Shown here: piece after piece, positions 49,158-63,377 of the stretch
Numbering within the stretch: position 1 is the stretch's first letter
Layout of the letters: every line of letters starts with the position of its first letter
From: a virus
Reading direction: 5' to 3' (one strand)
Length of the DNA stretch: 64,000 bases
IMG/VR virus record: IMGVR_UViG_3300043446_004155
Coordinates: 18,625 to 82,624 of that record
Notes under the pieces: model-generated
The model's input: only the letters and a program-made list of their open reading frames with translations
Databases searched by the model: none
Told to the model about the DNA's origin: nothing
Program-made: the position numbers and the translations under genes

Positions 49158-49159
49158 GA

Positions 49160-49279: not shown

Positions 49280-49300
49280 GATGAAATGAAATGAGTTGGA

Positions 49301-49328
49301 TGGTCAGTTTAAAGTCATGACCAGGACC
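49301..49328 (-). promoter_or_regulatory. Conserved leader hairpin, copy A
   Basis: Stem arms TGGTCA/TGACCA enclose the loop GTTTAAAGTCA (plus-strand reading) next to GGACC. The gene starts 21 nt further on, with a G-free leader and no Shine-Dalgarno. It shares loop and flank with copies B-E but has different, still complementary, stem arms. Confidence 0.75.
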
Positions 49329-49333
49329 ATGAA

Positions 49334-49717
49334 TCAATCGTTGGCAATACCGTTAAGACCAGCTTTGGTAATGGTTACCAAGTTACTGATGTAATCAGTA
49401 AGTGCATCAACCTTTGCACTAAGTGATTGGACTTCTGCCATTAGCTCTTCCCTGGTGGGAGTGATACCAAAGATCTCAACCGTTGCTTCTTTCAAAGCCT
49501 CCGGATTGTTGCTCTTTTGGTAACGCCGACAGTCATCATTGGTTGTGTACACAGCTTCCTGGTACAGATCCAAGATTGTTTTGAAGTCTGCATTACCAAC
49601 ACCTTCTTCTGCCATGATGTTGCAGGTGTCTAAGTACAGCTTGGCAGAAGCACGAATGTTCTTATTAAAGAACTCACTGTACTGTTCAGACGTTAAACCG
49701 TAAGTGTCAATCGACAT
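49334..49717 (-). CDS. Hypothetical helical protein (127 aa)
   Basis: MSIDTYGLTSEQYSEFFNKN: this ATG overlaps the upstream gene's last codons by 11 nt, a natural coupling; the longer frame inside that gene is a shadow. Helical and acidic with a Leu-rich C-terminal heptad segment (LMAEVQSLSAKVDALTDYIS). No family recognised. Confidence 0.6.
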   Translation of the reverse strand: MSIDTYGLTSEQYSEFFNKNIRASAKLYLDTCNIMAEEGVGNADFKTILDLYQEAVYTTNDDCRRYQKSNNPEALKEATVEIFGITPTREELMAEVQSLSAKVDALTDYISNLVTITKAGLNGIAND

Positions 49718-49898
49718 GAGAGTCAAGAGCATTGTGTAATGCGTCAAGCATAAAGGCTTTTTGACCTTCTTCACCAAGGGATGTCCAGTACTCCATCTCT
49801 GGATCTGTTTCATCCCAGGTGACGGTGATAGTCATGGTGCCATCCGGCTCATCAAGGCATTCAATCTTGAGCTTTTCGATCCAGTTCAGATTCGACAT
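49707..49898 (-). CDS. Hypothetical protein (63 aa)
   Basis: MSNLNWIEKLKIECLDEPDG then TMTITVTWDETDPEMEYWTS: a small beta-alpha protein, acidic. The beta-strand-then-helix layout resembles the product at 52674 (TRITVTFNAVF…). An in-frame ATG five codons earlier is possible. It overlaps its neighbours on both sides. Confidence 0.55.
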   Translation of the reverse strand: MSNLNWIEKLKIECLDEPDGTMTITVTWDETDPEMEYWTSLGEEGQKAFMLDALHNALDSHVD

Positions 49899-50091
49899 GG
49901 CTAATGAGGACATTGATTGCGTAGTCTTCGTGGTGCATCTTAAGGTCAGCGGCTAGCTTGACAAGCTCCCAGTGGGTGTCTTCAGGGATTTCAAGGTCAT
50001 AACATTTGTCGCCAGGGATTGATGAAATGCGTGGTTGCATGGCTAGTTGACGTGCGTATTCAAGGATGTCATCAAAGATTAAATCACTCAT
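49861..50091 (-). CDS. Hypothetical protein (76 aa)
   Basis: MSDLIFDDILEYARQLAMQP then a compact domain with DTHWELVKLAADLKMHHEDY. Acidic and helical. ATGA overlap with the upstream 313-aa gene and a 38-nt overlap with the next gene indicate a coupled operon. Function unknown. Confidence 0.6.
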   Translation of the reverse strand: MSDLIFDDILEYARQLAMQPRISSIPGDKCYDLEIPEDTHWELVKLAADLKMHHEDYAINVLISHVESELDRKAQD

Positions 50092-51029
50092 TTCTTAATT
50101 GCAGACTTGAGTTGTGGTAATGAGGTGCCAGGAAATGGAGCATAACCAGCCTCCATCATATTGAAGAACAGATCCCAGGCATCGTTCTGTGTGAACACCT
50201 CCTTAGGTTTGTAGGTACGCCAATGGCTAAGCGGAGCCTGCGCACCAGATTTGGTGTGAAGCAAAACAAAGCGTCCATCACTGGTGTGATCCACAGGCGG
50301 TGCATACCACCAAGCCACACACTTATCAGGTGTGCCACTGGGGCTGGCATTCCTTACTTCCGTGCGTTTGCATAGAAGCTCCCTGTACTTGTTGAACCAA
50401 GTCAGGTGGATGCACCAGGGCTTGAATCCCTGGATCTCTTCTTTGAAAGTAGCAAGGTTACCGAGCTGACGTTGAAAGGACCCACACGAGCATGTAGGTT
50501 CGCCAAAGATGGGCCGTTGTTCAGAACTTTCATCCAGTTCAGAGTCCATATCAAGCGGCCGATCCGCAAGCCGCATTCCGTCTGGCGCAACCAAATGGCC
50601 CAGGTCGGTCTGATCAGACTGAAGAAGGGTCGTGACTTTAGCTGGGTCTGACAGATGAATGAATTTGTCAGCCCAATGCGCCTGAAGCTTGGCATTGGAA
50701 CTCAGGTGTCCGAGTGCGTGCGTGTAGTTCCAGCCCTTAAACAGTATATAAGCATTGTGATGCCATACACTAGGGCCACGATAGTTGGGGCCAAGATACG
50801 AAAAGAAATCCTTAATACGGTTAGTGTAATGCTGGAATGCCTTGCAAATTAATTCCCGGTTGTAAGTCTGCTGACTACCATCATGACGCACCACAAGGCA
50901 ATCATCACCTCGCAGATAGATCCCAGCAATGCCGGTGTCATCAAAATCCTGGTAGGCACGGCGGATGTTCGTGCGTGTGTAGATACACGCCTGCGCCGCA
51001 TTGAGTTCCGTCTGGAGTGGAGTGGACAT
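50088..51029 (-). CDS. SWIM-like zinc-finger protein (313 aa)
   Basis: The middle contains CSCGSFQRQLGNLATFKEEI then QGFKPWCIHLTWF (about residues 184-216): a C-x-C-x(n)-C-x-H SWIM pattern that binds zinc and contacts DNA or protein. The N-terminus is a helical and beta mix (IRRAYQDFDDTGIAGIYLRG). The ATG is preceded by an unusually long G-free leader of about 35 nt with CTCAACCC repeats. Role unknown. Confidence 0.6.
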   Translation of the reverse strand: MSTPLQTELNAAQACIYTRTNIRRAYQDFDDTGIAGIYLRGDDCLVVRHDGSQQTYNRELICKAFQHYTNRIKDFFSYLGPNYRGPSVWHHNAYILFKGWNYTHALGHLSSNAKLQAHWADKFIHLSDPAKVTTLLQSDQTDLGHLVAPDGMRLADRPLDMDSELDESSEQRPIFGEPTCSCGSFQRQLGNLATFKEEIQGFKPWCIHLTWFNKYRELLCKRTEVRNASPSGTPDKCVAWWYAPPVDHTSDGRFVLLHTKSGAQAPLSHWRTYKPKEVFTQNDAWDLFFNMMEAGYAPFPGTSLPQLKSAIKK

Positions 51030-51059
51030 TGGGTTGAGTTGGGTTGAGTGAATGAGGAG

Positions 51060-51269
51060 TTAGACGTGCCAGAAGGAGTCGTCCTCCTGGTTCCTCTCCT
51101 TGAGCGTAGCATCATGCTTGGCCTTTTGGTAGGCGGCTTTCCCCATTCGATAGGTTCCATAAAGAACGGCTGCCCAGCAAACGGGGTTACCAAGGATAGC
51201 TGCAATTGAACCAGCGACAACTGCTGTTGCGCCTGCGGTTTTGAGAGCGGACTTTTCTTCAGGTTTCAT
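51060..51269 (-). CDS. Small membrane protein (69 aa)
   Basis: MKPEEKSALKTAGATAVVAG leads into a hydrophobic hairpin (SIAAILGNPVCWAAVLYG) and a charged C-terminus. One or two short membrane helices. Located between SWIM-like and unknown genes; possible membrane modulator. Confidence 0.55.
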   Translation of the reverse strand: MKPEEKSALKTAGATAVVAGSIAAILGNPVCWAAVLYGTYRMGKAAYQKAKHDATLKERNQEDDSFWHV

Positions 51270-51349
51270 TGTGTGATTGTTAACACAAACGGAAAGTTTG
51301 AATGTGTTTTAAATAGATGAGTAGAATTAGTGTAACAATTTAATACACA

Positions 51350-51607
51350 ATGGACGAAATCAAGTACGTACCGTTAACCAAATTCCAGATTGAACCAACG
51401 CTTGATGATAAGTTTTGGTTAGAAAAAATCAAACGGTCAATTCAGGATTGTGATTCGGTAAGTGCCTTGAAAGAAATGGCGACCTTGCTTGCGCAGATCG
51501 CCACGAATCGTCAAGGTGTTATTCGTGGGTTGGTCCAAGACATGTTCATCTTCAACAATGTTTCAGTTGAACCTGACGGTTTGGCCAACCCAGAAATCAA
51601 ACCTTAA
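51350..51607 (+). CDS. Hypothetical protein, isolated rightward gene
   Basis: 85 residues: MDEIKYVPLTKFQIEPTLDD, then a helical section (DSVSALKEMATLLAQIATNR) and a hydrophobic end. It is one of few rightward genes in the leftward right arm and overlaps the convergent gene by 4 nt. Codon pattern and ordered helices suggest it is real. Function unknown. Confidence 0.6.
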   Translation: MDEIKYVPLTKFQIEPTLDDKFWLEKIKRSIQDCDSVSALKEMATLLAQIATNRQGVIRGLVQDMFIFNNVSVEPDGLANPEIKP

Positions 51608-52620
51608 AGACCCTCGTCCTCACCAGTCATGGGGTCACGAGCAGGCAGTGCCTTGACTTCAAGTGCATCCGTGGTACGGGACACAGGAAGAATCTCAACA
51701 CCTTGCTTGATGCCATAGGCACCACCCAGCTTCTCAGCATCCTGCTTGGCATGCTGATTGATGTAATCGTTGAACATCTCCTGGAACTTCCAGGTTGATT
51801 CACGATCTTCATCGGGAATCGAGAGACGGCTCAGTGATTCAATCGCTGCATCCTGATTGCTGTAATCAGGAATCTCAAAGGATTCAATGGCGCAGATCTC
51901 TACGTTGTTTGCACCACGCATGTCATTGACAAGCACCGGGCAGAACACCGTAGTGGCATAAAACTTCTCATTGAAGCTCAGCGGAATCTCAGAGTCCAGT
52001 GCTTTTGACAGACACTTGGACATCTCCTTTTCATACATCCGAATCTTCTCAGATGCATCAGTGCCATTGAGACCCTTCAGCGTGAGCACCATGGGGATGT
52101 CATGGGCACGCTTGTTGTCCTGGGTAACGATATAGATCAGATACTTTGTACGCACACTGTACTTACGCTTGTACATCTCGCCCTTGCTGTTGGCAAGGTC
52201 GGCTGCAATCTTATCGGCTTCCCAAAGTTCTTTGACTTCAGGTGAATCAAATGTGCCAACCACCTGTCGCATTCCAGTGGTTTCTTCCACCATCAAAGGT
52301 GAACGCAGCAGAACCTGAACACGTGGCTCAGTAAAGTTCAGTCCTTCCTCGATGGAAGTATTAGGCGCCATGCCAAAGGTTTGTTTGTAGTCCCAGATGA
52401 CAGAGCCCTTGACAAAATCCGATTCAGTGGCTGTCCACTTGCAGTTGTCCAGATCAGATTTACGAACAAACCAACCGCGTGTTTTTGATTTGTTGAGGGG
52501 TTGAATGGTGACAAGGTTTTGGTAGCCAGATACAAATTCCTTGGATTGAAACATCCGGAAGGAATCAAGTCCTCGGGTTGCAAGCGCAGTGGTTTTCTTG
52601 GTGGTCATGGAAGAGGTCAT
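51604..52620 (-). CDS. Hypothetical protein, cyanobacterial/cyanophage type (338 aa)
   Basis: I start at the ATG giving MTSSMTTKKTTALATRGLDS; the 18 codons upstream in frame coincide with leader element B and are therefore untranslated. The body has GWFVRKSDLDNCKWTATESD and KYLIYIVTQDNKRAH with alternating beta strands, then an acidic C-terminus. It follows the SSB gene group and may bind DNA, from context only. Confidence 0.55.
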   Translation of the reverse strand: MTSSMTTKKTTALATRGLDSFRMFQSKEFVSGYQNLVTIQPLNKSKTRGWFVRKSDLDNCKWTATESDFVKGSVIWDYKQTFGMAPNTSIEEGLNFTEPRVQVLLRSPLMVEETTGMRQVVGTFDSPEVKELWEADKIAADLANSKGEMYKRKYSVRTKYLIYIVTQDNKRAHDIPMVLTLKGLNGTDASEKIRMYEKEMSKCLSKALDSEIPLSFNEKFYATTVFCPVLVNDMRGANNVEICAIESFEIPDYSNQDAAIESLSRLSIPDEDRESTWKFQEMFNDYINQHAKQDAEKLGGAYGIKQGVEILPVSRTTDALEVKALPARDPMTGEDEGL

Positions 52621-52640
52621 TGTTAGTTCGTAGTCAGGAG

Positions 52641-52668
52641 TGGACAGTTTTACGTCATGTCCAGGACG
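52641..52668 (-). promoter_or_regulatory. Conserved leader hairpin, copy B
   Basis: Stem arms TGGACA/TGTCCA around loop GTTTTACGTCA, flank GGACG. The proposed start is 20 nt away. Its presence inside the annotated-looking N-terminal extension of the downstream gene decides that gene's start. Confidence 0.75.
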
Positions 52669-52673
52669 TGCCA

Positions 52674-52922
52674 TCAGGTTAGTTGGTCTTGCTGCAAAGG
52701 CAAAGCAGTGACTAGATTTTCTTTACATTCAAAGTAATCTTTAGCAGCTTGGGCCATAGCGCCATAGATGTTGTCATCATGATGGCCGCAGCCACGCATG
52801 AAGTCCACCATTTGCCGCACTAATTCGTCCGTAAAAACCGCATTGAAAGTTACGGTGATACGGGTGGTTCCATCAATGTGCTGCAGAACAAACTGATCGT
52901 TGGTTGTTTGCACCTCAGTCAT
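52674..52922 (-). CDS. Hypothetical protein (82 aa)
   Basis: MTEVQTTNDQFVLQHIDGTT then TRITVTFNAVFTDELVRQMV: a strand-helix protein similar in layout to the product at 49707. GCGHHDDNIYG may bind a metal. Its ATG shares a base with the SSB gene's stop, so translation is coupled. Confidence 0.55.
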   Translation of the reverse strand: MTEVQTTNDQFVLQHIDGTTRITVTFNAVFTDELVRQMVDFMRGCGHHDDNIYGAMAQAAKDYFECKENLVTALPLQQDQLT

Positions 52923-53737
52923 CAGAAGGGAGCCTCTTCAAGATCGGGTGCATTGCCGTAGTGTCCTGGCAGGTCTGGCAGTCCACCACCGGAAGCAACG
53001 TTCCAGGGGTCTTGGTTGTCTTCAGCAGTGCGGCCACCCCAGAGCGGTGCCACGTTGTCAGAACTGGCAACCACAGTTTGAGATCGGATGGTTTGTGATG
53101 CTGTATCACCGGATGCTTTTGGAGCAAGGGTCATGGATACCAGCTGGATCTTGGTGGCGTAGCGCCGCTGGTTGCTTTCTTTGTCTTGCCACGCATCAGT
53201 CACCAATCTGCCATTGATAGTCAGGCCAGTTCCTTTGCGCGTGAAGTCAACAAGCAGTTGAGCATTATTCAGTTTGTCGTTGTGTGAATTGATGGCATAG
53301 AAATTGAAGAGGTCAGCTTGATTCCGGCCAGTGTTCACAGACAGCGTCTGATTGCAAATCATCAGACCATCTGCCGTTGTCTTGAAGGCACGGGCATCGT
53401 CCTGCTGGATGTCCTTGACACAACGTCCACTAAGGATAACTGTATTTAAGATGGGGAATGCTTCTGTGACAGGAGCAATGACACCACCGTGAAGTGAATA
53501 GGTGCGTGACTCCAGATCAAAACGCAGCTTGGCGCCATGGATGTAGATCAATGCACCTTTTGGTGTACGTGCAAAACGCTCAGAGTTTTTGCCATAAACA
53601 TTGAGTTCGATTGGAGTTGCAGCTTTGTTACCTACTGGAGGCAACAAAACATTACAGCGCAGTGCAGTTGAAGTAGCCGAGGTATAAACCTCACGCGGTT
53701 CTTCAGTGGTCTGCGCACAAACAAAAGCTTGGTTCAT
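52922..53737 (-). CDS. Single-stranded DNA-binding protein with two OB-like parts
   Basis: 271 residues. The second half (ILNTVILSGRCVKDIQQDDA, LSVNTGRNQADLFNFYAINS, TGLTINGRLVTDAWQDKESN, RRYATKIQLVSMTL) is an SSB OB-fold; the first half (TSATSTALRCNVLLPPVGNK) looks like another. The disordered tail ends DLEEAPF, close to the bacterial SSB acidic tip that recruits replication proteins. Leader element C precedes the start. It coats ssDNA for the neighbouring polymerase and primase. Confidence 0.75.
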   Translation of the reverse strand: MNQAFVCAQTTEEPREVYTSATSTALRCNVLLPPVGNKAATPIELNVYGKNSERFARTPKGALIYIHGAKLRFDLESRTYSLHGGVIAPVTEAFPILNTVILSGRCVKDIQQDDARAFKTTADGLMICNQTLSVNTGRNQADLFNFYAINSHNDKLNNAQLLVDFTRKGTGLTINGRLVTDAWQDKESNQRRYATKIQLVSMTLAPKASGDTASQTIRSQTVVASSDNVAPLWGGRTAEDNQDPWNVASGGGLPDLPGHYGNAPDLEEAPF

Positions 53738-53759
53738 GATGTTCCAAAGGGTTGTGTGA

Positions 53760-53789
53760 GAGGCAGTTTAACGTCTTACCTCAAGGACG
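53760..53789 (-). promoter_or_regulatory. Conserved leader hairpin, copy C
   Basis: Stem arms GAGGCA/TACCTC (one G.T pair) around loop GTTTAACGTCT, flank AGGACG, 22 nt before the SSB start. It overlaps the end of the zinc-ribbon gene. Confidence 0.7.
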
Positions 53790-54027
53790 AGACCACAACT
53801 TCACCATTTGAATCTATGGGTCGACCTTCTCGATCCCAACATTGATGACAATCAGGACACTGATAATGATGACAGCGGTCAGTGCCGAGATACTCCACGC
53901 CAAATACACGACTAAAGAACTTCGAATCGGGTGAATAATAACCCTTATCAATTGACTCTTGTGGGATATAAGAAATTACCCAGTTTGCATTACAGCTGGG
54001 ACAGTTCTCTAGCTTGGTGATGTCCAT
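53776..54027 (-). CDS. Zinc-ribbon protein (83 aa)
   Basis: CPSC near residue 9 and CPDC near residue 58 frame a small beta domain, a zinc-ribbon layout; HHYQCPDCHQCWDREGRP adds a further Cys. It starts 4 nt after the polymerase gene's stop. Possible transcription or replication cofactor; no family named. Confidence 0.6.
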   Translation of the reverse strand: MDITKLENCPSCNANWVISYIPQESIDKGYYSPDSKFFSRVFGVEYLGTDRCHHYQCPDCHQCWDREGRPIDSNGEVVVSSLR

Positions 54028-54031
54028 GGTG

Positions 54032-55858
54032 TTAGTGCGTTTCTGCCCATGACGAGCCTACGCGAGAGTCGCCTTCTATAAGACAACGGAACTTAAAGAA
54101 TTCCTGAGCTTGCGGGAAAGCAAGCATGGCTTGTTCTCGGATTGCTTCAGTGTGTTGAGGCTTGCATGCAATCTGAACTTCATCATGCACCATCAACAGT
54201 TGTTGCCAGTCATTGTCATACTCCAAACCAAGATTGTTCTTGATGTTGTTTTGGATGTTGATGACAACTTGCTTCATCAAGATTGCACCAGCTGATTGCA
54301 ACAACACATTCAATCCTTTAAATGCAGAACGGCAATACAACTGACGGCGATCCAAACCAATGAGGTAACCACGTAGACCAATTGTTTTATCAATCTCCAA
54401 CTTCAATGCTTTCAATGCTGGTACACCACGCATGAAACCATCGATAGCATCACGGCCAAGCATGCGGAGTTCATCTTCATCTTTCAAGTTGGGATCAATG
54501 ATTGAACCAGCCTTGACAGATCCACATCCATAGAGCATGCCGTAGAGCAAACGCTTGCTGATGTCCCTGGTCTCTACACCAAATTGTTTTTGGTTGTAGG
54601 TATGGATGTCAATGGATTCATCAGTTACCAGACGAGCGTATTCTCCGTCATCCCAGATTGCCAAGTATCCAGCAAGGCAACGTAACTCAAGTGCTTTAGC
54701 GTCAATACCAATGAGATCCCACCCGTCAGGAGGAGTGAACAAACTTCGACACTCCTTTCCATAGGGGGAGTAACCTGCTGGGACCTGACCCATATTTGGA
54801 TTGCGGTGTGAACAGCGCCCAGTAATGCAACCGTTAGTAATAACGTCGCCGTGGATACGACCAGTGTCATTGTTGTACAGCTTGATCCAAGAGTTGTTGC
54901 CACTAGCAATTTGACCAAGACGCTTTTTGACCAACATGTATTCAGTCAGAGGTTTGGCTTCTGGATAAGGCAGTTGTTCTAGTACCTCATCATTAACAAT
55001 TGGATTTCCTTTCTCAGTAAACTTCTCTGGTTTCCATCCGTACTTGCTGCCAAGTCGATCAACAATCTGCTCACGAGATCCTGGATTGAACTCTTCGTAG
55101 CTGACTTTGGTGAAAGGTTGTCCTTTGACATAACCACGTTTAACGTTGTTGACCTTTGGTACAAACACCTGTTCGTGTTTGATAGGTGGAAAAATTTGTT
55201 TTAGCTGTGCCTCAAGTTCTGTTTCTTTTGCTCGCAGCACATCCACCAAATCAAGAGCAGCATCCAAATCGAAAGGAACACCTGATCGAATTTGTTTGTT
55301 AATCGCCAAAGCAAAGTCGTGCTCCAAGAGTAGGGATGATTCCGGGTAGTTTTGCGTGGCGATGAGCTGCCAAAGATTGAAGGTAACTGCCACGTCTTGG
55401 ACGCAGTAGTCAAGCATCTCTTGGCTGTACTCCGTAAAGTCTTTGAAGTCGATCTTATGGGTGGCCAAGCGCCATCCCCAAGCCTTAAGTGATGCGGATC
55501 CACATAGGTTCTTTGGAACCTGCGGATATTGTTCCGTGTCAAGTTCATAGAGTACCTCCTTGGGCCAGATCAAACGAGTGCAGATGAGTGTGTCAATAAT
55601 GCGTGCGTTGATTTCTACATCAGGAAATAGTTTCTTTAAGACTGGGATGTCATAAAAACAAATGTTGTGGCCAATAAGAACATCAGCACGACTGAGATGC
55701 TCAAGAGCAGAGTCGATGCTGCCAGGATCAAAAGACAAAAAGTTCCCACTGTGGATGTCATAGAGGACAATGCAGTGAACTTTGGAAGCTTTGTCATAAA
55801 GTCCATCCGTCTCAATGTCAAAGACGTACCAAGTTTCACTTTCTGAACTGGGCTTCAT
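54032..55858 (-). CDS. Family A DNA polymerase, T7-like
   Basis: About 608 residues. The 3'-5' exonuclease comes first: FDIETDG (D14, E16), then GHNICFYDIPVL and a YCVQDV late motif. The polymerase follows: motif A as DLIGIDAKALELRCLA, motif B RLLYGMLYGCG, motif C MVHDEVQ. This is the layout of T7 gp5 and cyanophage polymerases. I chose the ATG giving MKPSSESETWYVFDIETDG; a start 13 codons earlier is also possible and lies in the same overlap with the upstream gene. Confidence 0.9.
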   Translation of the reverse strand: MKPSSESETWYVFDIETDGLYDKASKVHCIVLYDIHSGNFLSFDPGSIDSALEHLSRADVLIGHNICFYDIPVLKKLFPDVEINARIIDTLICTRLIWPKEVLYELDTEQYPQVPKNLCGSASLKAWGWRLATHKIDFKDFTEYSQEMLDYCVQDVAVTFNLWQLIATQNYPESSLLLEHDFALAINKQIRSGVPFDLDAALDLVDVLRAKETELEAQLKQIFPPIKHEQVFVPKVNNVKRGYVKGQPFTKVSYEEFNPGSREQIVDRLGSKYGWKPEKFTEKGNPIVNDEVLEQLPYPEAKPLTEYMLVKKRLGQIASGNNSWIKLYNNDTGRIHGDVITNGCITGRCSHRNPNMGQVPAGYSPYGKECRSLFTPPDGWDLIGIDAKALELRCLAGYLAIWDDGEYARLVTDESIDIHTYNQKQFGVETRDISKRLLYGMLYGCGSVKAGSIIDPNLKDEDELRMLGRDAIDGFMRGVPALKALKLEIDKTIGLRGYLIGLDRRQLYCRSAFKGLNVLLQSAGAILMKQVVINIQNNIKNNLGLEYDNDWQQLLMVHDEVQIACKPQHTEAIREQAMLAFPQAQEFFKFRCLIEGDSRVGSSWAETH

Positions 55859-56069: not shown

Positions 56070-56078
56070 AAGAAATGA

Positions 56079-56105: not shown

Positions 56106-56124
56106 CCATTCGTGGCAAGTGCCT

Positions 56125-56895: not shown

Positions 56896-56915
56896 GGTTG
56901 AGTTGAGTTGTGGGG

Positions 56916-56943
56916 TAAGCAGTTTAACGTCATGCTTAGGACG
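56916..56943 (-). promoter_or_regulatory. Conserved leader hairpin, copy D
   Basis: Stem arms TAAGCA/TGCTTA around loop GTTTAACGTCA, flank GGACG. The 20 nt between stem and ATG read CCCCACAACTCAACTCAACC on the coding strand: G-free, no Shine-Dalgarno. Confidence 0.8.
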
Positions 56944-56957
56944 AAATTTAATTGTTA

Positions 56958-57347
56958 TTAGTTGCGCATGTAATACTCTTTTTGTATATTAAGGGGCACA
57001 CCGGCGTCATCAAAATCTTCAGGGTGTATTCCCTGGACAGTTAATTCATCTTCTTCGTCAACTCCTGGGATAACCAACCCAGTACCAATAGCATCAAGCA
57101 GTGACGAATCAAGGGCCAAATCCCTTAACTTATATGCCAAAAGAGCAACCTCTCTTGCACCTGCCATTTGCAAATCGTTTTCTTTGGATCCATACATGAG
57201 AAACAAACCAGCTGCTTGGTAATACAATGTTTCATTCTCCTCAGAATTTGGAGACATTGGATTTGCTTTAGCCAAAAGATCTCTGGCTTGTTGCAAAGCG
57301 TCTGCACGGGTAACACCCTCTTTGCGTTGAAAGAATGTGGCACTCAT
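56958..57347 (-). CDS. Hypothetical protein (129 aa)
   Basis: MSATFFQRKEGVTRADALQQ, then helical repeats (ARDLLAKANPM, YYQAAGLFLMYGSKEN) resembling TPR-like pairs, and an acidic C-terminus. Soluble. Starts 25 nt after leader element F with a G-free spacer. Function unknown. Confidence 0.55.
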   Translation of the reverse strand: MSATFFQRKEGVTRADALQQARDLLAKANPMSPNSEENETLYYQAAGLFLMYGSKENDLQMAGAREVALLAYKLRDLALDSSLLDAIGTGLVIPGVDEEDELTVQGIHPEDFDDAGVPLNIQKEYYMRN

Positions 57348-57372
57348 TGTGTTGAATGATTAGTTTTATTTA

Positions 57373-57400
57373 TGGGTGAGTTTAAGGACATCCCAGGTCC
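57373..57400 (-). promoter_or_regulatory. Leader hairpin, copy F (divergent)
   Basis: TGGGTG pairs with CATCCCA if one base is bulged; the loop keeps GTTTAA and the flank is GGTCC. Same position relative to its gene as copies A-E, but the loop and spacing have drifted. Confidence 0.5.
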
Positions 57401-57590
57401 ATAATGGTATGGGGTGTAGAAGAGCAGCGTCAACCCCGAGGGAATCAGAGTTTCTGCTGCTTCCTCTGGTTGGTAACTGAATGACCTTGCGGCTTGATCA
57501 CCGTGAGGTCACACCCTCATATGTTACGGCACGAACGACATCAGATACATCAATCGTCATATAGTTTCCGTATCAATAAATACAGAACCC
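57401..57590. other. Divergent intergenic region without a gene
   Basis: About 190 nt between a leftward and a rightward unit. GTGA-GG-TCAC is the only compact dyad. It must contain the rightward promoter for the DUF4278 gene, but no clear -35/-10 pair stands out. Confidence 0.4.
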
Positions 57591-57743
57591 ATGACGTTAA
57601 CGTATCGTGGTTGCAAATACAACCAAGAGGAGCAGGCACAGAAAGACAGAGCCTGGTGGAACTTGGCCCACCGTCCCTGGCTTTGCCTGACGTACCGTAA
57701 CATCTGCTACTTTCCTTTTGTTACTGGAGGTCAAATCAAATGA
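57591..57743 (+). CDS. DUF4278-like protein (50 aa)
   Basis: MTLTYRGCKYNQEEQAQKDR, then Trp-rich WWNLAHRPWLCLTYRNICYF. The opening (M-x-LTYRG-x-x-Y) is the DUF4278 signature of cyanobacterial and cyanophage proteins, and LTYRN repeats it. Its stop overlaps the next start (ATGA), so the pair is coupled. Function unknown. Confidence 0.65.
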   Translation: MTLTYRGCKYNQEEQAQKDRAWWNLAHRPWLCLTYRNICYFPFVTGGQIK

Positions 57744-57856
57744 ACAAAGCACTGATCGTCTACCTGGTGGACAAGCGGAAAAAGCAAGTACGCAAAAATG
57801 TGGAGTCCAAGCATGCCGTCACTGCATTAAAAAAACAAAGCGCCGCGACCTTCTGA
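57740..57856 (+). CDS. 38-aa basic mini-protein
   Basis: MNKALIVYLVDKRKKQVRKN then VESKHAVTALKKQSAATF. It begins in the ATGA overlap with the DUF4278-like gene, which strongly supports translation. Short strand followed by a basic helix. It ends 19 nt before the convergent thyX stop. Confidence 0.55.
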   Translation: MNKALIVYLVDKRKKQVRKNVESKHAVTALKKQSAATF

Positions 57857-57875
57857 TCGCCACTCTTTGAGTTCA

Positions 57876-58514
57876 TCAGTCTTCTGCAAAGGCTGCTTCT
57901 CCAATGATGGGGAATTCTTTGCAGAAGATTCTTTTGATTTCTCTGGCAATTTGTTGGTGCTCGAGTTGGGTTCCATTGGAGCAGCGGAGATCAAGATAGT
58001 GGATCCACGACCTGAGTGTACCGTTCATGAACAGACGGGTCTGTGTCGATAATGGCAGAATGGAGCGAGCACATTCCTTAGCAATACCATTGCTTACCAT
58101 CTCGCGATACAAATGTTCTGCGTTTTCATACAATTCACTGATGCGTCGATAATAATTACCAACAAGATCAGGAGATAAGTCATCAATACTGTTTTGCCTG
58201 TTTTTCTGATCTTGTCTACGTAAATGCGGAATAACAGCTGAGCCCAGTTCATTTGTGTCTGCATAACGCTGACTAAATTCCTGGAATGAGAATGACCGAT
58301 GACGAAGAATCTGTGGTGAGATTGCACGCGTCGTTTCAATCTCCACGCACATCCCTGCCATCTCAAATGGACTCCAGTGTTTGTGCTTGATCAGATACTG
58401 CAACAACCGTGGAGCAGTATCCATGTTGTCTTGGTTCTTGGGTGCAGAAACTCTTGCCATCTTGACAATGAGTTCTTCTGCGTTGGGTGTAACCCAGGTC
58501 AAGTTAACATGCAT
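57876..58514 (-). CDS. thyX: Flavin-dependent thymidylate synthase
   Basis: 212 residues. The ThyX motif RHR-x7-S is at 71-81 (RHRSFSFQEFS), followed by SQRYAD, and the later SILPLSTQTRLFMNGTLRSW with HYLDLRC carries FAD/dUMP-binding residues. It methylates dUMP to dTMP using FAD, NADPH and methylene-tetrahydrofolate. Works with the phage dCTP deaminase. ThyX is usual in cyanophages. Confidence 0.95.
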   Translation of the reverse strand: MHVNLTWVTPNAEELIVKMARVSAPKNQDNMDTAPRLLQYLIKHKHWSPFEMAGMCVEIETTRAISPQILRHRSFSFQEFSQRYADTNELGSAVIPHLRRQDQKNRQNSIDDLSPDLVGNYYRRISELYENAEHLYREMVSNGIAKECARSILPLSTQTRLFMNGTLRSWIHYLDLRCSNGTQLEHQQIAREIKRIFCKEFPIIGEAAFAED

Positions 58515-58517
58515 GAG

Positions 58518-58820
58518 TTACTCCACCTCAAATCCATAGCCTTCAGATTGTAGCCGTTGAAGTTGATCAACAGGACAGATCCTCATCTGTGCATGTTCGG
58601 TTGGAGTTTGGAGATGATCCCATCTGATCATCAAAAACTTTTGCTTGGCACCTGATTTATTTGGCTTGAGTTTGATGCCAACAACAGTGCCATAGCGCTG
58701 GGACCTGTACTGTTGAACACGCTCTTTGGTTTCATTGCGTACAGCAAAGATGCCATGAGCTTTAGGACGTTCTGCTACGCGATCACCAATCACGTAATCG
58801 TATTGACGTTTGGTAGTCAT
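58518..58820 (-). CDS. Hypothetical basic protein (100 aa)
   Basis: RQYDYVIGDRVAERPKAHGI then RYGTVVGIKLKPNKSGAKQK and a strand FLMIRWDHLQTPTEHAQMRI: a small SH3/KOW-like beta barrel with basic loops. It ends 3 nt before the thyX start and overlaps the next upstream gene by 4 nt. Nucleic-acid binding is plausible. Confidence 0.6.
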   Translation of the reverse strand: MTTKRQYDYVIGDRVAERPKAHGIFAVRNETKERVQQYRSQRYGTVVGIKLKPNKSGAKQKFLMIRWDHLQTPTEHAQMRICPVDQLQRLQSEGYGFEVE

Positions 58821-59221
58821 TTGGATTTCCAGAGTTGAAAGTGATTGCAGTCGTACGACTCAGCAGTGTCGTACTCAGGAAAGTCAAAGGCGCAGTAACA
58901 ACCATCAACGTTGTGCTGGCAATCACTGCATTTGTTAAGTGCTCTGAATTCAGATGGACTCACCCCAGAATGGGGTGGAACCACCCCGGATGTGAGTGGT
59001 TGATTTGTCATGAGCTTGTGGAGCTGCTCAACAAGATAGAGGTTGCGCTTGGCTTCTTCAAAGAAATCTGCTGATACTTCATGGGTTGTAACCCTGTAGC
59101 TACAGCAGTCGCATTTCTTGCGGCGCCTTGTTGATAGACCAGTCTTCCTGGATTCAATAACCCTGAGTCCAGGTTGATTGCATTGTGGACAGTCAGGAAG
59201 GATTGCCTTCTGAAACGCCAT
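58817..59221 (-). CDS. NrdR-like zinc-ribbon protein with second Cys cluster
   Basis: 134 residues. CPQCNQPGLRVIESRKTGLS then TRRRKKCDCCSYRVTTHEVS is close to the NrdR zinc ribbon (CP-x-C…V-x-x-SR…RRR-x-C-x-x-C-x-R-x-TT-x-E). The C-terminus has CSDCQHNVDGCYCAF, a second metal site. The ATP-cone of NrdR is missing. It may regulate transcription; overlaps its neighbours on both sides. Confidence 0.65.
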   Translation of the reverse strand: MAFQKAILPDCPQCNQPGLRVIESRKTGLSTRRRKKCDCCSYRVTTHEVSADFFEEAKRNLYLVEQLHKLMTNQPLTSGVVPPHSGVSPSEFRALNKCSDCQHNVDGCYCAFDFPEYDTAESYDCNHFQLWKSK

Positions 59222-59522
59222 TGCTTTCTTGAATGTTCAGTGAATCAAGTAGATCAGTCGTTTGCTCTGGTCCGATCAAACTAAATGCATCAACAATCAA
59301 TTGAACATTGGGCACCTCTTTGTAATGTGTGTTGAGGAATAGTTCGGCATACTCAAAATCATCAACTGATCTGGTTAATTTCAACATGATGTCTGACGGC
59401 ATCTCATCAACAATGCGTTGAACAATTGCTGTACGCACTTGATCCCATGCATGATCAGGGATTGCATCAGCAATAAGTTGAGTAATGTCAGTTGTTGATT
59501 CAGGTTGAAGTGGTGTGATCAT
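59193..59522 (-). CDS. Hypothetical acidic protein (109 aa)
   Basis: MITPLQPESTTDITQLIADA is the start; twelve codons upstream in frame run through the terminator and are excluded. Helical and acidic (DQVRTAIVQRIVDEMPSDIM, YAELFLNTHYKEVPNVQLIV). It overlaps the NrdR-like gene by 29 nt. No family recognised. Confidence 0.6.
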   Translation of the reverse strand: MITPLQPESTTDITQLIADAIPDHAWDQVRTAIVQRIVDEMPSDIMLKLTRSVDDFEYAELFLNTHYKEVPNVQLIVDAFSLIGPEQTTDLLDSLNIQESNGVSEGNPS

Positions 59523-59524
59523 GA

Positions 59525-59552
59525 AGAAAAGACCCCTGTCAAAGCAGGGGCC
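59525..59552 (-). terminator. Rho-independent terminator
   Basis: On the minus strand GGCCCCTG pairs with CAGGGGTC (one G.T) around a 6-nt loop, followed by TTTTC. It ends the transcript carrying tRNA-Leu and the gene at 59571, and lies 2 nt before the next start codon. Confidence 0.8.
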
Positions 59553-59570
59553 AAACATTCCGCATGAATC

Positions 59571-59933
59571 TTAGGCAGGTTCAGCCTGTGTGTCCAGGAC
59601 CTGGTCCATTAATCCTGACTCTTTGAGTCGATCCAACATGCCGCACATGATGGTGGCATGGGCATGGGTCTGTTCCATGAACAGCTTTGCCCGCTCTGCC
59701 GACATGGTATGGATACGGCCGGAGGGTTCCACATAACGCCAGCTGCCATCAGGCTGGGGATCACCCTGGAGGGCAAGACGTTCTGAGTTGTGTACGTACC
59801 GTAGTTCGAGGTTGTGATAGTCCTTAAGACCGTCAGCCGCTGTCCAGGTTGCTCCAAGGTTGTAACGCTGATCGTCATCAGTGTATGCGTGGAACTCAGG
59901 AATGAGATGTTTGAATGCAGCAAAGATTTGCAT
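59571..59933 (-). CDS. Hypothetical protein (120 aa)
   Basis: MQIFAAFKHLIPEFHAYTDD then YHNLELRYVHNSERLALQGD, beta-rich, and a helical C-terminus (MSAERAKLFMEQTHAHATIM). It lies 20 nt after tRNA-Leu on the same strand and is closed by a terminator. Function unknown. Confidence 0.6.
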   Translation of the reverse strand: MQIFAAFKHLIPEFHAYTDDDQRYNLGATWTAADGLKDYHNLELRYVHNSERLALQGDPQPDGSWRYVEPSGRIHTMSAERAKLFMEQTHAHATIMCGMLDRLKESGLMDQVLDTQAEPA

Positions 59934-59953
59934 GACTTGAATTGAGTTTGGGT

Positions 59954-60029
59954 TGGTAGCCGACCCCGGATTCGAACCGGGACTTGAGCGATTTTAAGTC
60001 GCTTGCCTCTGCCGTTGGGCTAGTCGGCC
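59954..60029 (-). tRNA. tRNA-Leu (anticodon UAA), class-I-shaped, CCA encoded
   Basis: Acceptor GGCCGAC/GTCGGCT (first pair G.U), D-stem GCC/GGC, anticodon stem AGCGA/TCGCT with loop CTTAAAA giving TAA, T-arm CCCGG-TTCGAAT-CCGGG, discriminator A and genomic CCA. The variable region is only CAAGT (5 nt), whereas bacterial leucine tRNAs normally have a long variable arm. The 5' end overlaps the stop region of the gene at 60020. Confidence 0.9.
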
Positions 60030-60238
60030 TCACTTGGACTTACGCTTACGTCAATTGACGCATGCTGCCAAGTGTGATCTTGAGGCAGGACTTCCATTCC
60101 GTAAGTCCAGCTATCGTAGTCATCCTCATTACGAGGATCTTCATCGATCAAGATGTACTGTGGTGAGTTGTCATGAATGTACTCACCAATGTTAGCCATG
60201 GCCATGGCGAGTAGTTGATCATCGGTGTAATCGGTCAT
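60020..60238 (-). CDS. Acidic hypothetical protein (72 aa)
   Basis: MTDYTDDQLLAMAMANIGEY then IHDNSPQYILIDEDPRNEDD. Strongly acidic, possibly a DNA mimic or host-protein binder. Its last codons and TAG stop lie inside the 5' end of tRNA-Leu (10-nt overlap), so tRNA processing would cut the message at its end. Confidence 0.6.
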   Translation of the reverse strand: MTDYTDDQLLAMAMANIGEYIHDNSPQYILIDEDPRNEDDYDSWTYGMEVLPQDHTWQHASIDVSVSPSEAD

Positions 60239-60246
60239 GGGTAGAA

Positions 60247-60276
60247 ACCAGCCCTAGTATCGAGGCTAAGGCTGGT
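60247..60276 (-). terminator. Hairpin between two leftward genes
   Basis: ACCAGCC and GGCTGGT form a perfect 7-bp stem with a long loop, followed by TTCTACCC on the minus strand. A weak terminator or attenuator after the PcfJ-like gene. Confidence 0.4.
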
Positions 60277-60289
60277 AAACCGTGCGGGC

Positions 60290-62014
60290 TCAGGCAGATT
60301 GTAGCTGCTTCTCCCGTTGTTGCAAGACCTCACGGAAGGCTTCCGTATAAGCCTCACGTTGGTCTTCAGTGAGCCGCTGGTTAGCGACACCAGCGATTTG
60401 TTTGACGGACATCAGGCCCATGTCAACGACCAGCTGGATGGTGAATGTGGGCTTACCATCAATCATGCATAGCACGATGAAGTGCTTACGCTTCTTGATG
60501 TCATCGGCATAGTGGGATGCAGAGCCGACGCAGTTACGTACGGCCTGGCCCCACATAGCCAACTGATGTGTGTCAACAGGCTGGAAGAACGACCAGGTCT
60601 CACCATTGCGTGTAACCCTGATTGGTTCAGGGAATAGATCTTGACGCAATGATTCGTTTGGATTCTGAATCTTCCAGGACTCAGCTTGCACATAGTCATG
60701 GAACTCATTGATGCGCCACCGTTTGGGTGGTGTGAGTTCATTGCCATGGTCAAGGATACGGATTGCCATGGAGAATGTGTCATTTAGTTCATAGAATCCA
60801 ATACGTGCATAACCAACTTCTGAGTCAGGACGAAGTAAATCTTGTGATTCAAGATACTTACGCAGCATTGTGAACATCGATGCAACTGGCATGTGTTCAC
60901 GTAACCAACTAACAAATGCATTTGAGCTGGTGCTGATGCTGCTTGTACGTACTTGACTCAGCCTGATGTAACGGAGTTCTTTGTAATAGGTTTGGTAGTA
61001 ATCAAGTGGGCAGTCAGGCCATATCTTGTTAATCCAGTCAATTGAATCAATGACATGGACAAAGGTTTTAAAGCCTTGAGTAATTGGCTTGCGCTGAGTA
61101 TTACCTGGGTCACTATATGCAAGTGTGCAGCGATCAAGCTCTGCTTGTAACAGCTTCTTAATTGCTGACTTGGAAATGATGTGACTGATTCTTTCCAATA
61201 CGCAAAACGTTGATGACGGGAAGTTAGGGTTCTTATTGAATTCAATTGTTGCATTAAGTAAGTTATCAACAGTTAGACCTTGCTTTAGGTCAAAACACTT
61301 TGCCATCATCGGAGGAAGGTCGGCTGCATCAAAAATGTTCTTGCAGCGCATACGATCAAACAATCCACGGGAGTCAGACCATGTAGGCATGTCTTCCCGT
61401 AGGCTTGCTTCGTATGGACGGATGCAATGCTCAATGATCTCGCGTCCTTTCTGGCAGTAAAGGTTAAAGGCTTGCCACTGGTAGGCACGCCAGCCACTGC
61501 CTTCACTTGATTCAATGTCACCCTTGGTGATGTTCATTGAGTAAGTAAAGGTCTGGACGCCACGAGCACCTTCGTGCTCGATGCACTTATCTTTGCTGGT
61601 CCAGATGTGGTGTGGTGCAGTCTTGGCAGCAGCCGCTGTGTTCTTGAATGCGTAGGCGTGGCCGTACACATACTGATCAGCTTCCTTCTTTGGAGGAAGC
61701 CATGCTGCATACCACACCTGTTCATAGTGATACAGGATGGCAATAACTTTGAGGCGAGCCTGCGGAGTTGCTACGTCCACAGGCGTGGTAAATACTCTGT
61801 AACGATCTGGCGCAGACTGCTGATTGATGTGATCAATCGCAGCTTGCTGATCTGATTCACGCACCACGTTATGTGGGATGAGGTGCGGAATGTTACCGAG
61901 TGGGTACTTAGCTTTCTTGGTTGATGTGGTCTTAGCCTGCTTAGCCAACACCTTTAGTGTTGGGTCATAAGCCAAGAGTTCGGTTTGCAGGTTGGAGGGA
62001 AGTTGGAATTGCAT
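60290..62014 (-). CDS. PcfJ-like protein (574 aa)
   Basis: The C-terminal 130 residues have WSFFQPVDTHQLAMWGQAVR then NCVGSASHYADDIKKRKHFI and GKPTFTIQLVVDMGLMSVKQ, the PcfJ-type domain (N-C-V-G…I…G-x-P-x-x-T-I-x-L…Q-x-x-G-x-x-N) known from conjugative plasmids and phages. The N-terminal 400 residues are unique. Role unknown. Leader element E precedes the start with a G-free spacer. Confidence 0.7.
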   Translation of the reverse strand: MQFQLPSNLQTELLAYDPTLKVLAKQAKTTSTKKAKYPLGNIPHLIPHNVVRESDQQAAIDHINQQSAPDRYRVFTTPVDVATPQARLKVIAILYHYEQVWYAAWLPPKKEADQYVYGHAYAFKNTAAAAKTAPHHIWTSKDKCIEHEGARGVQTFTYSMNITKGDIESSEGSGWRAYQWQAFNLYCQKGREIIEHCIRPYEASLREDMPTWSDSRGLFDRMRCKNIFDAADLPPMMAKCFDLKQGLTVDNLLNATIEFNKNPNFPSSTFCVLERISHIISKSAIKKLLQAELDRCTLAYSDPGNTQRKPITQGFKTFVHVIDSIDWINKIWPDCPLDYYQTYYKELRYIRLSQVRTSSISTSSNAFVSWLREHMPVASMFTMLRKYLESQDLLRPDSEVGYARIGFYELNDTFSMAIRILDHGNELTPPKRWRINEFHDYVQAESWKIQNPNESLRQDLFPEPIRVTRNGETWSFFQPVDTHQLAMWGQAVRNCVGSASHYADDIKKRKHFIVLCMIDGKPTFTIQLVVDMGLMSVKQIAGVANQRLTEDQREAYTEAFREVLQQREKQLQSA

Positions 62015-62036
62015 TGATTTGAGTGAGTAAATAGAA

Positions 62037-62064
62037 TGGGCAGTTTAACGTCATGCCCAGGACG
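62037..62064 (-). promoter_or_regulatory. Conserved leader hairpin, copy E
   Basis: Stem arms TGGGCA/TGCCCA around loop GTTTAACGTCA, flank GGACG, 22 nt before the ATG. The intervening leader is G-free and has no Shine-Dalgarno. The loop and flank are identical to copy D although four of six stem positions differ. Confidence 0.8.
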
Positions 62065-62069
62065 GTTGA

Positions 62070-62321
62070 TCAATCTAGGTCGTCATGTTCGACCAGTTCC
62101 CATTGAGGATCGAGCTGATCAAGATAGGCACAGAAGCCATCTTCATCAAGAGGGATTGGTTCCTCTGGATCCAACTCAACAGTTGTTGTGCATAGTGCAG
62201 GAGCCCATTCTTCAGGGTCGAGATGAGTTGCGTGATAGAGCAAACGCATCTCGTCAACAACTGCTGTAACAGTGACATGGGTATCAGTGAATGAGGTGTG
62301 TTCGATTGCAAGGACAGTCAT
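62070..62321 (-). CDS. Acidic hypothetical protein (83 aa)
   Basis: MTVLAIEHTSFTDTHVTVTA then strands and an acidic loop (LDPEEPIPLDEDGFCAYLDQ). It starts 2 nt after the preceding gene's stop and ends 5 nt before leader element E. Function unknown. Confidence 0.6.
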   Translation of the reverse strand: MTVLAIEHTSFTDTHVTVTAVVDEMRLLYHATHLDPEEWAPALCTTTVELDPEEPIPLDEDGFCAYLDQLDPQWELVEHDDLD

Positions 62322-62323
62322 TG

Positions 62324-62506
62324 TTATTCCTCAATGTAGGAATAGTTTGGTGTGTTGACGCAGCGGTACTTCATCCACAGCTGAGCTGTGTGGTACTCGC
62401 CTTCAAATCGTGTTGTGTCCAGCACGTTTGCACTTGCTCGGCGCTTGGCGCAATCAGCAAGATTGATGCGGTCAAACAAGTTGATAGTGTCAATGAATGC
62501 AGCCAT
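62324..62506 (-). CDS. Hypothetical protein (60 aa)
   Basis: MAAFIDTINLFDRINLADCA then KRRASANVLDTTRFEGEYHT: helical start and a beta end (AQLWMKYRCVNTPNYSYIEE). First gene after leader element G. Similar short proteins of this kind are typical of cyanophage early regions; no family recognised. Confidence 0.55.
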   Translation of the reverse strand: MAAFIDTINLFDRINLADCAKRRASANVLDTTRFEGEYHTAQLWMKYRCVNTPNYSYIEE

Positions 62507-62532
62507 GGTTTGAATTGAGTTAGTGAACAGGA

Positions 62533-62562
62533 CCTGGGACTTACACCTTGCGGATGCCCAGG
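62533..62562 (-). promoter_or_regulatory. Leader hairpin, second class (copy G)
   Basis: CCTGGG and CCCAGG arms are 18 nt apart. The segments CCTGGGACTTACAC and GATGCCCAGG are shared exactly with copy H at 63378-63418. About 26 nt before the start of the 60-aa gene. Confidence 0.6.
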
Positions 62563-62566
62563 ATCT

Positions 62567-62764
62567 TTAGATTAATTTAATGTTTGGAATGCTAACTCCT
62601 GTGCCAGGAACACTGAGTGATCCTTTGACACCATTGGGATTTGCATTGAGAGTTAGTTGGAATGGACCAAGCTTGATTGCTTTAGTCACTGATTTGATTC
62701 CATGTTCTGTGATGTTCACACCATGAATGGTGCGATCAAAACTAATGAGGGATCGTTTAGTCAT
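62567..62764 (-). CDS. DUF4236-like small protein (65 aa)
   Basis: MTKRSLISFDRTIHGVNITE then KLGPFQLTLNANPNGVKGSL and SVPGTGVSIPNIKLI. The last part resembles the G-x-x-(S/V)-x-x-PGTG-x-S motif of DUF4236 domains. A compact beta fold. It overlaps the next upstream gene by 4 nt (ATGA). Confidence 0.55.
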   Translation of the reverse strand: MTKRSLISFDRTIHGVNITEHGIKSVTKAIKLGPFQLTLNANPNGVKGSLSVPGTGVSIPNIKLI

Positions 62765-62967
62765 CGCAGGTCATCCGGAAGCAATGCTTGGGAATCTTCA
62801 TCATCCATATTTGTCATTACAAACTTCTCTCCATTGGGGGCAATAAAGCCCCCAATGAATCCCATGCCAAGACGATCGGATGTTTCCTTCATCTTGGCTA
62901 CGAGTTGCATAGCTTCAAGTCTTTGCATATCCATGGAGTCTGGTATGCGAGGAGTGTTGTCAGTCAT
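62761..62967 (-). CDS. Hypothetical protein (68 aa)
   Basis: MTDNTPRIPDSMDMQRLEAM then QLVAKMKETSDRLGMGFIGG and FIAPNGEKFVMTNMDDEDSQ. Met-rich, helical then beta. The ATG is preceded by a G-free leader of about 27 nt with ACTCAACTCA. The 125 nt before it contain G/C runs near 63073-63095 but no clear terminator. Confidence 0.55.
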   Translation of the reverse strand: MTDNTPRIPDSMDMQRLEAMQLVAKMKETSDRLGMGFIGGFIAPNGEKFVMTNMDDEDSQALLPDDLR

Positions 62968-63092
62968 TGAGATGAGTTGAGTAGGTGTGTGAAGTCTATC
63001 AGGGTTGTCAAGGAATGGATGGGGAGTAACACATAAGTTTATCTAATAGAATTAAATGAACTCCTGGTACTCCCCTCCGGGGGTCTGGGGGA

Positions 63093-63353
63093 TCAGCTGT
63101 GCATAGCTTGATGTTCTTTCCATGCAGCAGTATGCATCTCAGCCATCGTGATAGGCGGTTCGCCTACCTCGTCTGGTGCGTAGTCAACATCAAGTTCATT
63201 CTCAATCATGGGAATGATCTCGTCATCGAGCAGTGCAAGCATGCTCGGAGTGAGATGCTGATCCATTTCGTGACGCTTTGCTTCACGTTCGCTGATTGCT
63301 TTGAGCAGAGTCAAAGCTTCTTGAACGTAAACGTATTCGTTCTTGTAAGTCAT
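63093..63353 (-). CDS. Acidic helical hypothetical protein (86 aa)
   Basis: Start chosen at MTYKNEYVYVQEALTLLKAI, 24 nt after leader element H with a G-free spacer; the 25 codons upstream in frame run through that element. Helical and acidic with DDEIIPMIENELDVDYAPDE. Function unknown. Confidence 0.6.
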   Translation of the reverse strand: MTYKNEYVYVQEALTLLKAISEREAKRHEMDQHLTPSMLALLDDEIIPMIENELDVDYAPDEVGEPPITMAEMHTAAWKEHQAMHS

Positions 63354-63377
63354 GGTTTGGTTTGAAGTGAGTGAATG

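Follow-up and report, generated by a model that had tools for sequence, protein, structure and literature searches.

Guanine-free leaders, a covarying pseudoknot, and a conserved hairpin in an S-EIV1-like cyanophage: a possible RNA element of gene borders

We analyzed a 64-kb stretch of viral DNA, referred to below as the window, which is part of the 82,624-base IMG/VR virus record IMGVR_UViG_3300043446_004155. In a minus-strand block of the window, leaders without a single G run up to start codons that lack a Shine-Dalgarno (SD) sequence, and several of them are preceded by one of two compact RNA folds, namely, an H-type pseudoknot supported by covariation (motif A) and a hairpin with a conserved internal loop (motif B). 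The reading that we favor, at a little short of even confidence, is that fold and leader form a modular gene-border cassette, in which a structured RNA insulator would be joined to an accessible, SD-independent start-site leader. The DNA polymerase A of the window is 67% identical to its counterpart in Synechococcus phage S-EIV1 (KJ410740), and, judged by its sequence, the window is that of an S-EIV1-like cyanophage; IMG/VR yielded 69 loci with a polA relative, mostly near ones. The genes for SSB, polA, thyX, GP88, the PcfJ-like protein, and DUF5895 lie in the minus-strand block from ~42 to 64 kb, to which we gave the label replication module.

Leaders without guanine

The original prediction named seven leaders that contain no G up to the start codon, and the sequence bears this out; an eighth, before 62506, had been overlooked. 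To place these leaders against a background, we used a hand-made list of 30 minus-strand genes between 46 and 64 kb, the starts being our own choice. The count covers the 18 leaders whose 20 nucleotides are fully intergenic; the other 12 run into another gene and were excluded. Eight of these 18 contain no G, compared with 166 of the 16,220 20-mers (1.0%) on the same strand outside leaders (binomial P of ~5e-12; no more than 3 in 20,000 random draws). None of 17 leaders in the plus-strand structural module was G free. Among the 41 G-free runs of at least 20 nucleotides on the minus strand, 32 end away from any listed start. The G-free leaders, all on the minus strand, are as follows.

49280 to 49304 (-): 25 nucleotides, before the gene for a 40-residue peptide, start 49279
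51030 to 51064 (-): 35 nucleotides, ACTCAACCCAACTCAACCCA, start 51029; the upstream hairpin is neither motif A nor motif B
56896 to 56919 (-): 24 nucleotides, start 56895
57348 to 57388 (-): 41-nucleotide run ending at the start codon at 57347
62015 to 62040 (-): 26 nucleotides, start 62014; overlaps the 3' strand of stem 2 of motif A
62507 to 62527 (-): start 62506
62968 to 62995 (-): 28 nucleotides, start 62967; without clear upstream structure
63354 to 63377 (-): 24 nucleotides, start 63353

The same trait was found in S-EIV1, where 8 of 40 intergenic leaders on the minus strand and 1 of 35 on the plus strand are G free; these genes were annotated by others, and the recurrence replicates the observation made in the window. 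In S-EIV1-like contigs, 85 unique leaders that follow the pseudoknot consist of 36% C, 32% A, 27% T, and 4.7% G, and G is absent from 31 of them. The recurrence of ACTCAA/CTCAAC repeats, also part of the prediction, holds in this set: CTCAA occurs in 24 of the 85 leaders (5.9 in shuffles), and the commonest 5-mers are AACTC, CAACT, and ACTCA. Several copies of motif A (stem 1 AGTC/GACT) with CTCAACTCAACTTG leaders were also seen in a further viral contig (locus L176), which is perhaps another cyanophage lineage with the same fold and leader cassette.

As predicted, the named leaders lack an SD sequence and the gene starting at 48163 has one (AAAGGAG), and none of six SD-like tetramers tested was found in the 85 leaders. 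The further proposal, that the lack of an SD sequence separates early from other translation, was not supported. SD matches of at least 4 nucleotides are rare on both strands of S-EIV1, with 5 of 40 minus-strand and 3 of 35 plus-strand intergenic leaders containing one, and they are missing from other genes in this phage group as well. Because SD motifs are scarce throughout the group, their absence is not distinctive, and we rejected the contrast between SD-less and SD-bearing genes; it is the missing G that sets these leaders apart.

We then computed the probability that the start region is unpaired. Between positions -20 and +6, the predicted mean unpaired probability falls with G content, from 0.69 (17 leaders without G) through 0.58 (22 leaders with 1 or 2 G) to 0.42 (71 leaders with at least 3 G; 0.69 versus 0.42, P = 4e-8). 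Random phage 20-mers substituted for the leader lowered the predicted openness in 15 of 17 cases. The idea of an unstructured leader that recruits ribosomes without an SD sequence thus stands as far as G depletion, SD absence, and predicted openness are concerned, and the modeled openness fits an SD-independent landing site; ribosomal protein S1 as the partner is plausible.

A pseudoknot and a hairpin upstream of the leaders

The structures upstream of these leaders had been treated as mere background hairpins. They do include folds, but these turn out to be a pseudoknot supported by covariation and another, separate motif. Motif A, the pseudoknot, is compact and of the H type, with a 4-bp stem 1, a C (L1), a stem 2 (S2) of up to 6 bp, 1 nucleotide, and the loop UUAAAC. 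A broad pseudoknot scan of the window gives about 150 chance matches per strand and was used only in combination with the conserved core. With a descriptor of motif A, we found 127 copies in the polA loci and 1 in Markov-resampled sequence; of 83 unique copies in these loci, 80 lie on the polA strand.

Since the descriptor demands pairing, it was excluded from the analysis of covariation, for which we used matches to a sequence pattern that leaves the core pairs of stem 2 free. A number of results support the fold. (i) Of 224 distinct 28-mers, 183 have standard pairs at all three free core positions, compared with an average of 87 and a maximum of 107 in shuffles; for the viral sequences alone, the count is 104 of 127 (shuffles, 44; maximum, 56). 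(ii) In these free cells, G-U is common and A-C rare, as RNA predicts. (iii) In an alignment for pair counts, comprising 100 of the 127 distinct viral 28-mers, 93.1% of the cells are paired compared with 83.4% in shuffles, and double-sided changes number 119 compared with 46. (iv) The covariation score of this alignment is 0.385 compared with 0.195, with none of 500 shuffles as high and no slid register close. The outermost pair of stem 2 is weak, being unpaired in 34 of the 100 sequences. The search pattern fixes three of the four stem 1 pairs and one stem 2 pair, and these columns are uninformative; likewise, the invariant columns of the alignment are set by the pattern, and their invariance is built in. 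Covariation within these sequences supports motif A as a pseudoknot.

Motif A precedes six starts in the window (49279, 52620, 53737, 56895, 57347, and 62014), four of them with G-free leaders and two, 52620 and 53737, with leaders that contain 2 G each. The copies are as follows.

62037 to 62064 (-): motif A, CGTC C TGGGCA T GACG TTAAAC TGCCCA, before the PcfJ-like gene, start 62014
56916 to 56943 (-): motif A, stem 2 TAAGCA/TGCTTA, before the GP88-family gene, start 56895
57373 to 57400 (-): variant, stem 1 GGAC/GTCC, stem 2 TGGG/CCCA, 7-nucleotide loop, start 57347
52641 to 52668 (-): motif A, stem 2 TGGACA/TGTCCA, loop TAAAAC, 5 nucleotides past a stop; before the DUF5895 gene, start taken as 52620 (-), 20-nucleotide leader with 2 G
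53760 to 53789 (-): variant, 10-nucleotide loop, stem 1 CGTC/GACG, stem 2 GAGGTA/TGCCTC read by eye (scans and descriptor miss such variants); before the SSB gene, start 53737, leader with 2 G
49301 to 49328 (-): motif A, stem 2 TGGTCA/TGACCA, before the gene for the 40-residue peptide

Motif B has the form NNTGGGC[A/G]TC-hairpin-G[G/T]TGTAAGTCCCANN and was found upstream of 62506 and 63353 in the window and of 40711 and 41408 in S-EIV1. With the core fixed and the outer four pairs left free, 34 of 58 distinct matches are fully paired, compared with 10.7 when shuffled (maximum, 19). The leaders 3' of motif B contain 2.3% G, and 17 of 33 are without G. In 17 of 34 cases, motif B begins 2 to 6 nucleotides past the stop of an upstream frame. 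The two copies in the window are as follows.

62533 to 62562 (-): motif B, CCTGGGCATCCGCAAGGTGTAAGTCCCAGG, before the gene starting at 62506
63378 to 63418 (-): motif B with a longer inner hairpin, before the gene starting at 63353

Placement and distribution

In S-EIV1-like contigs, motifs A and B usually lie 2 to 6 nucleotides after a stop and about 20 to 25 nucleotides before a start. In 37 of 89 copies, the gap between the preceding stop and motif A is exactly 5 nucleotides, and the distance from the end of motif A to the next ATG is 18 to 35 nucleotides in 82 of 89, including copies whose previous stop is distant. Since this range holds even when the stop is far away, motif A in these phages belongs to the downstream gene. 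On other viral contigs, the 5-nucleotide gap was found in 34 of 129 copies, and the distance to the downstream start is loose. The families encoded downstream of motif A include PcfJ-like proteins (29), SSB (28), DUF5895 (15), and GP88 (14), in addition to small proteins. The commonest carrier in S-EIV1-like contigs is a 40-residue peptide, which accounts for 35 of 247 downstream proteins; in the window, its gene lies at 49157 to 49279 on the minus strand, and the product (MFE...PVVKDLLWAAAGMLLTYVLNK) is probably membrane spanning.

Both motifs also precede tRNA genes. Of 115 unique tRNA contexts (window and viral loci), 10 have motif A in front of the tRNA and 4 have motif B there. The gap between motif A and the tRNA is 1 to 4 nucleotides in nine contexts and 10 in one, seven of them representing one tRNA-Asn family, and that between motif B and the tRNA is 2 to 3 nucleotides in all four. 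With both motifs combined, the fold lies 1 to 4 nucleotides before the tRNA in 13 of the 14 fold-bearing contexts. A tRNA gene in the window is followed by a leader of related composition.

59954 to 60029 (-): tRNA-Leu (TAA), with a nearly G-free leader 3' of the tRNA, up to the start at 59933

Two scans of sequence collections gave lower bounds (at least 120 and at least 118 loci) and describe the distribution of motif A, not its abundance. A copy of motif A, in some cases degenerate, separates the portal or minor-head gene from the scaffold gene in Lactococcus phage BM13, Leuconostoc phage LLC-1, Streptococcus phage Javan11, Enterococcus phage phiFL4A, and the thermophilic phage D6E, whereas in Nostoc phage NMeng1, it precedes a tRNA-like gene. 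It was also seen in the gap behind the last annotated gene of Sigmofec virus UA08Rod_4626 (locus L321; single-stranded DNA Microviridae). The BLAST matches behind the copies in named phages are short, with E values from 4e-5 to 0.8. The pseudoknot can be read in the sequences of BM13, D6E, NMeng1, and the microvirus, and the copies in LLC-1, Javan11, and phiFL4A lack parts of it; stem 1 of BM13 (TGCC/GGCA) represents further covariation. In six Firmicutes phage or prophage loci (L194, L161, L115, L240, L111, and L287), we observed a second conserved hairpin, GYGU-YYYGGUU...GAGUC-RRR-GGGCAA, between motif A and the SD sequence of the scaffold gene, the scaffold protein of L194 being phrog_172/DUF4355.

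In bacterial genomes, at least three stem 2 pairs are kept in 110 of 120 pattern matches among the matches listed. As a separate observation, in 80 of 139 genome matches, again among those listed, motif A overlaps or follows a micro-open reading frame (micro-ORF) whose product ends in AHCxxG[C/H]. This micro-ORF encodes roughly 20 to 40 residues with the conserved end (V/I)AHC(K/S)(E/D/G)GC (loci L195, L201, L207, L211, L230, L258, L301, and others) and was found in Omnitrophota, deltaproteobacteria, Moorella, and other anaerobes; the genes downstream of it vary (Rrf2 regulators, FMN reductase, and a GRDB-family fragment), and we found no description of its motif in the open-access literature. 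Elsewhere in the window, the plus-strand block contains a group I intron at 1748 to 1989 (+) (RF00028, 90 bits).

Possible function and comparison with known systems

From the computed covariation, placement, G depletion, and openness, we infer a function at gene borders along the following lines. A compact fold, either motif A or motif B, lies close behind a stop codon (motif A most often at 5 nucleotides) and would act as an RNA insulator that remains folded beside the terminating ribosome, blocks base pairing between the coding RNA before it and the unit that follows, and probably protects the border from exonucleases after transcript cleavage. The G-poor C/A/U leader of about 20 to 25 nucleotides that links the fold to the SD-less start codon would serve as a single-stranded, SD-independent landing site for the 30S subunit, a substitute for the SD sequence in cyanophages. 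Ahead of tRNAs, and of genes that have an SD sequence themselves, the fold alone would be used. In a broader form, about which we are slightly more doubtful, motifs A and B would be interchangeable members of a class of boundary RNAs that has gone unrecognized; phages infecting several host phyla would use them to punctuate polycistronic transcripts, keeping mRNA apart from mRNA and from tRNA, and the cyanophages would add a guanine-free landing strip for SD-less starts. A border function is favored over ligand binding because of the tight fit to both neighbors and the exchange of two unrelated folds.

Several observations weigh against this reading. (i) Outside S-EIV1-like phages, 29 viral copies of motif A have no start within 60 nucleotides, and 18 of these 29 lie at most 12 nucleotides from the upstream stop; there the motif may serve the upstream gene. 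(ii) In the Lactococcus, Leuconostoc, Streptococcus, and Enterococcus phages, motif A stands behind a terminator-like hairpin instead of a stop. (iii) In the window, the leaders of 52620 and 53737 are not G free, and that of 62967 is G free without a fold. (iv) The strongly conserved letters of motif A (L1 C, AAAC, and the S2 A-U) could be a protein or ligand site.

Two alternatives are close rivals of the insulator and may overlap with it. The first, which we consider unlikely but the stronger of the two, is recruitment of S1 and the 30S subunit: the pseudoknot would dock the ribosome via S1, with the C/A/U leader as the S1 footprint, and initiation would be SD independent. It has been reported that pseudoknots were preferentially selected as binders of the Escherichia coli ribosome or of free S1 and that the rpsO pseudoknot is melted by S1 on the 30S subunit (PMC3858243), and the SD-less leaders predicted to be open agree with this scheme. 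However, both motifs also precede tRNAs, and motif A precedes SD-bearing scaffold genes in Firmicutes; for this reason, a pure translation-enhancer reading falls short.

The second, judged slightly less probable again, is a nuclease roadblock, in which the fold would mark processed RNA ends and stop exonucleases (5'-3' RNase J or, for the upstream mRNA, 3'-5' enzymes). It would account for the tight placement at junctions, and RNase P processing at the tRNA contexts would put the fold 1 to 4 nucleotides from the 3' end of the mRNA; in several Firmicutes phages, a hairpin with a U run lies just upstream. The exact pattern was found in 15 of 299 genomes of a sample of the Bacillus phylum (seed included; control pattern, 1) and in 1 of 398 of a sample of the phylum of a Rhodobiaceae metagenome-assembled genome, that one being the seed (control, 0), a contrast between hosts that is at most suggestive of RNase J. 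The contrast does not follow RNase J cleanly, however, since the enzyme is present in some alphaproteobacteria, and many of the Bacillota matches are of the chromosomal micro-ORF kind.

A translational operator, on which SSB or another phage protein would nucleate at the pseudoknot and spread over the leader to shut off a regulon, appears improbable. T4 gene 32 has the same layout of pseudoknot and leader in the published account of its operator (PMC535899), and the SSB gene carries motif A in the window and in many relatives. Most carriers are not SSB genes, however, and, in unrelated phages, motif A is found upstream of scaffold genes and tRNAs, besides being present in bacterial chromosomes; in addition, no UUAAA repeats stand out in the leaders, and motif B is interchangeable with motif A.

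We consider it very unlikely that motif A is a DNA element (promoter or repressor operator) or a small-molecule riboswitch. It does contain two interleaved inverted repeats, and compact pseudoknots can be aptamers, but the two-sided changes and the tolerance of G-U fit RNA, the copies in the polA loci lie almost all on one strand (80 of 83), the downstream gene families are unrelated, and no Rfam match was obtained in the stretches searched. Nor does the 3' strand of the pseudoknot cover an SD sequence or start codon, as in a translational riboswitch; the start lies 18 to 35 nucleotides away in 82 of 89 copies, and there is no SD sequence. To our knowledge, Rho is absent from cyanobacteria, and the idea of a Rho utilization site in this C-rich, G-poor RNA was set aside. 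Least probable of all is a recoding pseudoknot that stimulates readthrough or frameshifting of the upstream gene, which we rejected: the 5-nucleotide gap resembles recoding spacers, but the stops of 100 copies at 5 to 6 nucleotides are mixed (TAA, 45; TGA, 44; TAG, 11), the downstream start shares the reading frame in just 26 of 97 cases, and the readthrough extension has a median of 18 codons, several stopping at once.

The fold may be an unrecognized RNA border element. Rfam 15 gave no match, either at the gathering score or at a low E value, over motif A or B in the whole window, the region from 46 to 64 kb, 18 other loci, or one element alone, and in the annotated named matches examined, no annotated feature covers motif A. 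P1 and UUAAA recall the Pistol ribozyme; this candidate was dropped after no Rfam match at the gathering threshold (18 loci) and none at an E value of 10 (one full element). No description of the motif was found in the open-access literature, including passages of PMC2864571, PMC535899, PMC8040213, PMC3858243, and PMC10783764. If the border reading is true, a 28-nucleotide fold overlooked by current annotation would be a portable punctuation mark of phage transcripts, and the borders of transcripts and genes with high expression could be predicted with its help from sequence. Leaders without guanine are a clean natural setting in which to study SD-less start-codon choice in bacteria, above all in cyanobacteria.

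Among known systems, manA, wcaG, PhotoRC-II, glnA, and Downstream-peptide are likewise structured leader RNAs, some of them in cyanophages; they are named candidates, most with Rfam accessions (PMC2864571), and cmscan found none of them in the window. The T4/RB69 gene 32 operator shares more with motif A: in the T4 gene 32 mRNA, an H-type pseudoknot of ~28 nucleotides upstream of the start is followed by an unstructured leader, and both systems involve phage replication genes, with SSB among the carriers. That operator serves one gene and has UUAAA/UAAA repeats and an SD sequence in its leader (PMC535899), whereas the folds described here precede unrelated genes, as well as tRNAs, and are followed by short (18 to 35 nucleotides), G-poor, CTCAA-rich leaders without an SD sequence, with motif B as an alternative fold. 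UUAAA/UAAA repeats are not prominent in the 85 leaders; UUAAA sits inside the pseudoknot. With rpsO (S15) and the selected S1- or 30S-binding pseudoknots, motif A shares a pseudoknot in an mRNA leader, recognition by the ribosome or S1 being described for the former; the rpsO pseudoknot includes the ribosome-binding site and coding sequence (PMC3858243), whereas motif A lies wholly upstream of a start site that is predicted to be open. Finally, the leaders resemble SD-independent unstructured initiation regions in lacking an SD sequence and in being open around the start, but differ from them in being almost devoid of G and in their linkage to one or the other conserved fold.

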